This document shows positions 7,736 to 35,982 of a stretch of 45,204 nucleotides of DNA, in pieces; within the stretch, counting starts at the first letter, position 1, and every line of letters starts with the position of its first letter. The stretch is taken from positions 1 to 45,204 of the forward strand of contig JACAEL010000056.1 in assembly GCA_013388835.1 (NCBI GenBank), written 5' to 3'. The stretch comes from Candidatus Thorarchaeota archaeon (GTDB lineage: Archaea; Asgardarchaeota; Thorarchaeia; Thorarchaeales; Thorarchaeaceae). The translations under genes were made by a program, and so were the position numbers. The notes under the pieces were generated by a model. It saw only the letters and a program-made list of their open reading frames with translations, searched no databases and had not been told where the DNA came from.

Positions 7736-7758
7736 TGCGTGGACTCGATGGTTGTTGA

Positions 7759-7943
7759 CCGTTCATTCCTGATTCGACAGGTTGGACACAGGAGTTTTGT
7801 CGCTCCCAATTAACGGCACTTGGTCACTCCTCATGGTCTGATGGGGTGTCTAACTGACCTCAGTTTCTCAGTCTCCGCAAGGGGTATATAAGCACCACTT
7901 GGTCTCTGAGGTTGTCCAACTCATGGGCAGCTGTTGGAAACCA
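7759..7943 (+). repeat. Dispersed intergenic repeat, copy A (diverged)
   Basis: A diverged copy (roughly 70 percent by eye) of the 192-bp repeat at 22152 and 23118. Shared landmarks in order are CCGTTCATT at 7759, GTTGGACACAGGAG at 7781, the hairpin GGAGT/GCTCC at 7791-7806, GGTCACTCCTC near 7821, GACCTCAG, GGTATATA...GCACCAC near 7882, and TGTCCAAC...GGGCAGCTG near 7913-7932. GTTGGACA (7781-7788) is fully complementary to TGTCCAAC (7913-7920), so the copy can still close a long stem. It occupies the gap upstream of the 7735 methylase. A one-base deletion breaks the antisense reading frame seen in copies B and C. Confidence 0.8.
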
Positions 7944-15001: not shown

Positions 15002-15195
15002 GAAGGCTCCAGCAGCCGCCTCGAAGTTGCACCGTCCTGAGCATGCACGGAGTGGTGCCCATGTATGCCCATGTGAACTGGAGCATACGAGGTCAACTCG
15101 ACACCTCAACTGGCCTCGAGAAGACACTCTCAAGTGCTGCTTTCTGGGAGTGACGGCACTCCGGTGTTTAACTCCGTCCGATCAAGAACAGATGG
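15002..15195 (-). repeat. Dispersed intergenic repeat, copy E (diverged, inverted)
   Basis: A full-length but diverged copy of the 192-bp repeat on the minus strand. Read on the plus strand, it shares AGCAGCCGCC at 15011, GAGTGGTGCCCATGTAT near 15050, TCGACACCTCA near 15098, CCTCGAGAA near 15114, CTGGGAGTGAC at 15144-15154 and ACTCCGGTGTTTAACT near 15158. These follow the same order and nearly the same spacing as the reverse complement of copy C. The 5-bp hairpin GGAGT/ACTCC (15147-15151 and 15158-15162) is kept with a different loop. The long end-pairing is not clearly kept. Confidence 0.7.
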
Positions 15196-15272
15196 TGCGG
15201 GCAGCGTGTCTAGTGTCACACGGCCGCGCTGCACGCACGCACGCGCTGGGCACGTTGCTGTGCTAGCAGAGA

Positions 15273-22122: not shown

Positions 22123-22151
22123 CCAGCAGGGCCGACGCATCCCCGTTACGA

Positions 22152-22343
22152 CCGTTCATTTTTAGTTGGACAAAGTTTGACACAGGAGTCTTGTCACTCC
22201 CAGGAGACGGCACTGGGGTCACTCCTCGAGGTCTCATGAGGTGTCTAACCGACCTCGAGCTCTCAGCTCCCGCACGGAGGTATATATGCACCACGCAGTG
22301 ATGTCCAAGATTGTCCGACTTCTGGGCAGCTGCTGCTAACCCA
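22152..22343 (+). repeat. Dispersed intergenic repeat, copy B
   Basis: A 192-bp element about 94 percent identical (about 11 substitutions, no gaps) to copy C. It runs from CCGTTCATTTTTAG to GCTGCTAACCCA. AGTTGGAC (22164-22171) can pair with GTCCGACT (22313-22320), with one G-U pair. Inside are the hairpins GGAGT/ACTCC (22185-22189, 22196-22200) and CTCGAGGTC/GACCTCGAG (22225-22233, 22251-22259), and a TATATAT tract near 22280. The antisense strand is open in both B and C, but the differences change six amino acids and copy A breaks the frame, so coding is doubtful. Confidence 0.92.
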
Positions 22344-22731
22344 ATGAGGCACCGGGTCCCAGAGGAGGAGGGGGCATCCACCAGCTCCCAGTGGCCGAAC
22401 GGTTGATGGGGCAACATGGTATGTCGATGGACCAGCGTGGCCAATAGGAAACCGAAGCCTGCCAGGAGACACGACAGGAGAAGGCAGTCGATTGGAGAGC
22501 CCCAAGGAGTCTGAAGATGCTGAGTTCGGCAGGACTTGCCGCTGCAAAGGCGCAGTGACCGGAGTTGCTATGCACCCAACGGGCCGCGATGGCTAGGTTC
22601 CATTTCAAGTGATACGACAGATGCGTGGGAGGTCAGCGTGAACACCGATGGCGGCGCGCCGTTGACTCGGAAGCAGCGAGCCCAAGCTTCATGACTCATC
22701 ACGCCGCGTTTTCTCTGAGCACAGCCAGATC
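22344..22731. other. Gap between repeat copy B and the next frame
   Basis: About 390 bases with no gene I can support. No hairpin or repeat was noticed beyond copy B itself. Confidence 0.35.
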
Positions 22732-23067
22732 ATGAGAACACGCACGCCTATCACAGAACTAGTCGGGGAAGTCTCATCTTCTGTCAACCGTAGCCTGTTG
22801 ATTCGCAGACTGTTCTTCGACTTGCACACCCCCTTCCGAGAGATCAGAGAACTTGCGTTCCCCGAACTGTTTAACACAGGACGGCCCAGGGTCACTGCCA
22901 GAAGAAACGCGGACATTGAGATACTCGCCGCTCTTGGTTGTGACGACTGGCTGGAGTACACCGTTCTGAGGAGTAGGACATTCCCTTCGCAGAAGCGCAG
23001 GGCGCCTCACCTCATCATCACGGAGCAGTCAACGCAGCGGTCCTCAGACAGCTTCAGGCAAGTCTGA
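22732..23067 (+). CDS. Possible small protein between repeat copies B and C
   Basis: A 111-residue, Arg-rich frame starting at ATG 22732 (MRTRTPITELVGEVSS). It has amphipathic helices and a plausible LIRRLFFDLHTPFREIRELAF segment, but no recognised family and only a weak ribosome site. It is the only plausible gene in the 774-bp segment bounded by two direct repeats. An overlapping antisense frame also exists. It may be a decayed gene. Confidence 0.35.
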   Translation: MRTRTPITELVGEVSSSVNRSLLIRRLFFDLHTPFREIRELAFPELFNTGRPRVTARRNADIEILAALGCDDWLEYTVLRSRTFPSQKRRAPHLIITEQSTQRSSDSFRQV

Positions 23068-23117
23068 AGCTCACTCCAGGACACTTCACTGCTGGCCGTC
23101 ATAGCGCGCCGGTGATG

Positions 23118-23309
23118 CCGTTCATTTTTAGTTGGACATAGTTGGACACAGGAGTCTTGTCACTCCCAGGAGACGGCACTGTGGTCACTCCTCGAGGTCT
23201 CATGAGGTGTCGAACCGACCTCGAGCTCTCAGCTCCTGCACGGAGGTATACATGCACCACGCAGCGATGTCCAAGACCGTCCAGCTTCTGGGCAGCTGCT
23301 GCTAACCCA
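23118..23309 (+). repeat. Dispersed intergenic repeat, copy C
   Basis: Exactly 192 bp and ungapped against copy B, in the same orientation. AGTTGGAC (23130-23137) pairs with GTCCAGCT (23279-23286) using one G-U pair at a different position from copy B. A second block, TTGGACA with TGTCCAA, pairs completely. The hairpins GGAGT/ACTCC and CTCGAGGTC/GACCTCGAG are unchanged. It lies between the small frame at 22732 and the 3' end of the CPBP protease gene. Confidence 0.92.
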
Positions 23310-35685: not shown

Positions 35686-35829
35686 TCATGAGAGAACATA
35701 CCTGAACGCAAAAACAGAAACAATCAATTCTGTGCGACTCGGCTCAGACAGGCACGTTCCAACTGTGGCGTTGCGCGGCGGCCTGTGATGCCACCACAAC
35801 CCGCGTACCATAGGGTCCTGCCTCGCCTC

Positions 35830-35866
35830 CCGTTCATTCTCAGCCGGACGGGGCTGGACACAGGAC
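35830..35866 (+). repeat. Dispersed intergenic repeat, fragment D
   Basis: CCGTTCATTCTCAGCCGGAC followed by GGGGCTGGACACAGGA matches the first 36 bases of the 192-bp repeat with a handful of mainly transition differences. The similarity fades after about 35866. It lies in the gap between rubrerythrin and the HAD gene. Confidence 0.55.
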
Positions 35867-35982
35867 CCTCTCCTCAGCTGTGGTGCCTGTGTGTCTGGGT
35901 ATGTCAGCCGCCAGGCACGACAGGTTCAGAAACACCTGACGTCGTACACGAGTCCCAGACACCAAGACAGGAGAGATGAAAC

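Follow-up and report, generated by a model that had tools for sequence, protein, structure and literature searches.

Cas12 descends from TnpB, and the eukaryotic Fanzors arose from the IS607 branch of TnpB. In some bacteria, stand-alone omega-RNA (HEARO/IscB) loci occur without an adjacent nuclease gene and are presumed to act in trans; these involve a different nuclease (IscB) and are not known to be IS607 MITEs with a promoter of their own. Elements of the IS607 family (IS607, IS1535, ISC1926, ISXfa1) encode a serine recombinase, TnpA, with an N-terminal MerR-type helix-turn-helix, and a TnpB with a right-end reRNA (PMC6188088, PMC10711439). Exchange takes place at GG, (G)GG is preferred as target and no duplication is made (PMC6188088), and a fixed right-flanking nucleotide is part of the reRNA scaffold (PMC10711439). 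Terminal-only derivatives, called PATEs, have been described in archaea (PMC3119063), and IS607 elements and the guide RNAs of TnpB are likewise known.

Here we analysed a 45,204-nucleotide stretch of DNA (the window), which is contig 56 in a 3.01-Mb, 125-contig assembly of a Candidatus Thorarchaeota archaeon. Sequence comparison indicates that a repeat in this window is quite probably a non-autonomous IS607-type MITE of Thorarchaeota carrying a TnpB guide-RNA (omega-RNA/reRNA) gene. A search of mostly open-access papers found no earlier description of an IS607 MITE family with its own covarying, promoter-linked guide RNA kept across an Asgard class.

The MITE and its larger parent transposon share with the IS607 family a GG core, a (G)GG target, the lack of inverted repeats and of duplication, a fixed right-flanking base and a TnpB right-end RNA; the parent also shares the serine recombinase TnpA with its N-terminal MerR-type helix-turn-helix. 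In contrast to that family, the parent is ~9 kb long, with a TnpB of ~720 aa and an extra protein of 1,400-1,960 aa, and the MITE has no protein genes. The Haloquadratum PATEs are likewise high-copy archaeal non-autonomous derivatives of TnpB transposons without inverted repeats or duplication, but they belong with IS605 (Y1) rather than IS607, and the published account presents them as joined termini and does not describe an omega-RNA linked to a promoter (PMC3119063). The RAGATH-18 reRNAs of bacterial IS607 TnpBs resemble the MITE RNA in being structured right-end reRNAs with pseudoknots, a flank-derived guide and a G-rich TAM, which is AGGAG or GAGGG (PMC11061315). However, their structure differs, and they lie in cis with tnpB, whereas the MITE RNA is mostly found on tnpB-less elements. 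An earlier note on this DNA had not recognized the repeat as a known family, and this holds for Rfam: a search of the window at the gathering score and of eight loci at lax thresholds gave no relevant match, including to RAGATH-18. The Aloposons of Heimdallarchaeum are also Asgard transposons that encode giant proteins; unlike the parent described here, they encode Otus/Ephialtes proteins of 3,000-6,000 aa and integrate at tRNA sites, and TnpA and TnpB are not mentioned in their description (PMC8813620). Identity with Aloposons was rejected on the basis of the random GGGT sites and the different gene content.

Copies of the repeat and their insertion sites

The earlier note had listed two 192-bp copies, B (22152-22343) and C (23118-23309), a diverged copy A (7759-7943), an inverted copy E (about 15002-15195) and a fragment near 35830, all between genes. 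We confirmed that B and C are each 192 bp long and 94% identical, and all window copies lie between annotated-type ORFs. The remaining members of the list were recovered by a covariance model (R1), the training of which included copy B and left out A, C, E and the fragment; in the window the model found these five places and no others. Four of them lie on the minus strand, with E values from an unfiltered search: B (22151-22342, E = 5e-25), C (23117-23308, E = 6e-23), the diverged copy A (7758-7943, full length by alignment, with the RNA part at 7758-7875, E = 3e-14) and the fragment (35829-35902, E = 0.005). The diverged copy E (15002-15196) is inverted, with its RNA part at 15075-15196 on the plus strand (E = 6e-10). 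In copy B the GGGT target copy occupies 22339-22342 and the element proper runs from 22338 down to 22151; the exact units between GGGT and flank are 22151-22338 (B) and 23117-23304 (C). The right-flanking nucleotide of copy C is C, not the usual T. Copies B and C have the same orientation and are 774 bp apart, with a 111-aa ORF without a Pfam match (22732-23067) between them. The pair might act as a compound element.

The search for further copies proposed by the earlier note yielded many. Model R1 matches 71 places in the source genome, and blastn with copy B as query gave 44 hits in this genome from 40 scored of 107 candidate regions; both copy numbers are search-based counts, and those of the model can take in tnpB-linked ends. 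Across the Thorarchaeota class, 34 of 47 genomes and 11 of 13 genera contain model matches (580 in total), while a model search of ~149 sampled other Asgard genomes gave none. Among GTDB r220 contigs and in IMG/VR, an exact pattern had no match, because that pattern is specific to the source genome. The MITE units are 187-201 bp long and code for no protein. A tRNA-derived element was dismissed, as the window has no tRNA.

In RNA orientation, the layout of the element is GGGT-NN-GCAGCAGCTG...AATGAACGG-T. The two ends differ from each other and terminal inverted repeats are absent, as in IS607 ends. The left junction is GGGT and the right junction is CGGT. When everything that follows GGGT, up to and including ACGGT, is taken out, four genes broken by insertions regain a continuous reading frame. 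They encode a GDSL hydrolase (L046), an Rv0428c-type acetyltransferase (L040), a HAD hydrolase (L053) and, in the source genome, a TnpB (L004/L066). In the first three of these, a Pfam match spans the rejoined junction. The interrupted tnpB (L066, G000:C91) is a second one, of a different subfamily, and its RuvC/Zn-ribbon end is intact. In a nested insertion (L009/L072), one copy lies in the left-end GGGT of another. From the gene-restoring removals and this nested insertion it follows that an empty site has a single GGGT and that the target is not duplicated, a pattern that fits exchange by a serine recombinase at a GG core. Of the right flank, the base directly following ACGG is constant (T in 57 of 62 cases) and all else is random; beyond GGGT, the left flank has no consensus. 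Random flanks with a fixed right-flanking nucleotide are expected of IS607.

Repeats of the TTGGACA type recur at 10-bp spacing at both ends (53 of 54 spacings at the RNA end and 39 of 43 at the left end) and are candidate TnpA sites. In copy B two of them lie at the left end (22302-22318, minus strand), inward of the GGGT target/core (22339-22342, minus strand) on the putative TAM side, and two, TGTCAAAC and TGTCCAAC, at the right end (22165-22182, minus strand), where GTCC also forms a pseudoknot with GGAC. The end pairing of AGTTGGAC with GTCCAACT that had been described is present, but it originates from the recurrence of these repeats at each end. GTTGGAC/GTCCAAC also resembles the core motifs of integron attC sites; this identity was rejected because the order is reversed (GTT... 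first).

A covarying RNA and a TATA-like box

A structured RNA occupies one end of the element, on the minus strand in copy B, and terminates at the element border. It consists of helix I, a long-range helix II, hairpin III, a pseudoknot and a pairing between the loop of hairpin III and the 3' end. In copy B, all on the minus strand, the predicted omega-RNA scaffold begins with helix I and ends with the fixed flanking T (22151-22257). Within it, helix I (22227-22257) pairs 22251-22257 with 22227-22233, helix II (22185-22225) pairs GGAGT at 22221-22225 with ACTCC at 22185-22189, and the loop of hairpin III (22199-22218), CCGT, pairs with the 3'-end ACGG.

Folded as a single sequence, neither strand of copy B is significantly stable (z of -0.8 and -1.3), so the structure was judged by covariation only. 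Among 29 diverse sequences, 89.9% of cells are paired and 14 of 28 pairs show double changes; none of 500 shuffled controls of these sequences attains any of five measures, and sliding the partners abolishes the signal. With 72 distinct model-aligned sequences, an alignment that leans to the model, 15 of 19 pairs in nested helices show double changes. The covariation test suggested in the earlier note thus has a positive outcome, at pairings other than the hairpin it named: GGAGT-6-ACTCC is present but lacks covariation support (three double-changed cells in one pair), whereas the pairing of GGAGT with a distant second ACTCC has double changes in four of six pairs, the two outer pairs in 11 sequences each. 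Serine recombinases act on duplex DNA. Since the IS607 TnpA is such an enzyme, the covariation argues for RNA. The two possibilities initially raised, a structured RNA and a foldback element, are each right in part: the repeat is a mobile element, and it contains a covarying RNA. It is not a foldback, however, and the RNA lies on the opposite strand.

Upstream of the RNA, 41 MITEs sampled class-wide have an A+T content of 80-98% at each of model positions -15 to -10, and GG at -20 and -19. The centre of this TATA-like box is ~26 nt before helix I, which is the usual archaeal TATA-to-start distance. The class-wide form is YTTWWATA. In copy B the box is CATATATA (22281-22288, minus strand); the boxes of the source genome's copies (CATATATA, CATGTATA) are weaker than those found elsewhere, and CATATATA is the form in recent copies. 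A T-run terminator after the guide is not enriched. Neither the box nor helices I and II occur in the left-end-to-tnpA stretches and tnpB-linked ends that we examined. The MITE is therefore not just a fusion of parental ends, and a simple internal deletion is insufficient as the origin of the whole element. It resembles a guide-RNA gene packaged to stand alone, apparently with its own promoter.

The IS607-type parent, TnpB and competing readings

Both MITE ends match transposons whose products are TnpA, a serine recombinase of the IS607 family, and an unusually large TnpB of ~720 aa. At least seven loci (L082, L083, L084, L093, L094, L097 and L099) have a MITE-type left end just upstream of an IS607-like tnpA, and the MITE right-end core follows 54 tnpB genes. 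The TnpA of L148 (the same gene as in L084) scores 156 bits against the NCBIfam IS607 model NF033518 (cut-off 110); it is the one TnpA scored in this way, the others being recognized from PF00239 matches and motifs in common. Locus L148 holds an entire parent element, about 8.7 kb long, with left end, tnpA, an opposite-strand ORF of 1,874 aa, a 727-aa tnpB and right end, and more than a dozen loci have a similar layout with an ORF of 1,400-1,960 aa ahead of tnpB. The cognate TnpBs are usually 710-770 aa long, match PF07282 and show the expected RuvC/Zn-ribbon motifs on inspection of the alignment. Those of L147-L156 (alignment A4; ~720 aa) are nearly double the usual size, with an extra N-terminal part of ~300 residues. 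An alignment search with TnpB found hundreds of relatives in GTDB, nearly all from Candidatus Thorarchaeota and one from Lokiarchaeota, along with weak matches to a few archaeal or Thermogemmatispora records; the same search of viral contigs found none. In a further element (L156:5588-7920), left end, tnpB and right end occur without tnpA, so that tnpB moves or persists independently of the transposase as well.

The source genome retains remnants of such parents. MITE-type right ends follow decayed tnpB genes on C6 and C55, and a 451-bp relic on C12 (L068) consists of a left end, a remnant of the TnpA helix-turn-helix, the TnpB C-terminus and a right end. The assembly has no intact cognate tnpA or tnpB, only decayed tnpB pieces, and no PF00239 recombinase. 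For this reason, the copies in this genome may be inactive leftovers of past spread, even though some share 98% identity.

The 54 tnpB-linked 3' ends carry hairpin III, GGAC/GTCC and AATGAACGGT. In the 44 of them that were aligned, hairpin III, the loop-to-3'-end pairing and GGAC/GTCC are common to the MITEs and have covariation of their own, and CTTG/CAAG stands in place of the MITE helix II strand. As 54 tnpB genes have this RNA core at their 3' ends, the MITE RNA is very probably the scaffold of a guide (omega) RNA for TnpB, with flanking DNA as the guide. The predicted guides of copies B (22131-22150, minus strand) and C (23097-23116, minus strand) are unique flanking DNA, as suggested by the random flanks and by IS607/TnpB biology (PMC10711439), and no two of 61 sampled predicted guides are alike. 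TnpB and the RNA also co-occur: 26 class genomes have both, eight have only the RNA, none has only TnpB and 13 have neither (Fisher p = 1e-6 over 47 genomes, not corrected for phylogeny and with a model that also scores tnpB-linked ends).

The MITE could instead be a plain passenger that keeps the ends needed by TnpA, its RNA-like structure being a functionless relic of the tnpB-linked right end. TnpA recognition and descent would explain the common right-end core and the 10-bp repeats, the source genome is without an intact cognate tnpB, and the haloarchaeal PATEs are comparable terminal-only derivatives (PMC3119063). We nevertheless consider this unlikely, since a relic would not retain the pairing of helices I and II through double changes, as these MITE-internal helices do across 11 genera, and the helices and the box are missing from the examined parent ends. 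Domestication by the host, whereby the RNAs, alone or with a nuclease-dead TnpB, would regulate or protect host loci, fits the conserved promoter-like box and structure and the many copies in genomes without intact TnpB (71 in the source genome and 50 in G006). We give it only a slim chance: random flanks, guides that are all unlike and several copies that break genes speak for mobility and not for a conserved regulatory locus.

Derivation from an IS200/IS605 (Y1 HUH) element such as a PATE, with the hairpins acting as single-stranded DNA ends, would account for the lack of terminal inverted repeats and duplication, the subterminal structure and the fixed short target. It is hardly credible here, given that a Y1 TnpA occurs in two of the 47 class genomes and is absent from the window's own genome, that the MITE-type left end is instead found at IS607-like tnpA genes, and that the GG core and the fixed right-flanking base are IS607 traits.

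Proposed mechanism and the giant parental protein

Expression of the MITE RNA and its binding by TnpB are predicted from sequence features. TnpA supplied in trans would bind the TTGGACA repeats, spaced 10 bp apart, at either end of the MITE and mobilize it. The TATA-like box would start transcription at helix I, giving a scaffold of ~107 nt that runs into the flank, and the first ~20 nt past the fixed T would become the guide. A trans-acting TnpB with the MITE RNA could then cut the empty site, either once the element has excised or on a sister chromosome. In the empty site the guide sequence directly follows GGGT; judging from the junctions, the likely TAM is GGG(T). The occupied site would be spared because CGGT instead of GGGT adjoins the guide-matching sequence there, and repair from the occupied copy would keep or spread the MITE. 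That helices I and II were not found at the examined tnpB-linked ends is a counterpoint to any TnpB accepting the MITE RNA.

A broader proposal, to which we assign slightly short of an even chance, is that promoter-bearing guide-RNA genes are packaged class-wide as IS607 MITEs and reprogram a trans-acting large TnpB with each insertion, as a miniature gene drive, helices I and II having evolved specifically for the stand-alone RNA. If true, a protein-less element would defend and spread its insertions via RNA-guided cutting, with guides matching its own empty sites. The main reading already gives an Asgard DNA repeat a concrete identity and a testable job. On that reading, a natural IS607-type guide-RNA family near the eukaryote lineage, separate from its nuclease and equipped with its own promoter-like box, illustrates one route to a trans-acting guide and effector, as in CRISPR.

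The large TnpBs of ~720 aa and the giant RecA-like/nuclease-like protein of the parent are a further resource. The latter, of 1,400-1,960 aa, is encoded between tnpA and tnpB on the opposite strand (L148:4155-9776, L147:1908-7007, L151:4015-9327, L150:1347-6827 and L152:2914-7902, plus others) and has no sequence match in Pfam, NCBIfam, PADLOC or PDB. An AlphaFold model of its first 1,150 residues (mean pLDDT 68.5) gave weak Foldseek matches to Elp6, KaiC, Dmc1/Rad51 and DnaB, which suggests a RecA-like ATPase part. A PD-(D/E)xK-like motif (VDL...LEIKTK) is conserved in this protein. In a variant parent, a separate Rad51-like protein (PF08423; L149:6565-7575) is encoded between tnpA and tnpB.
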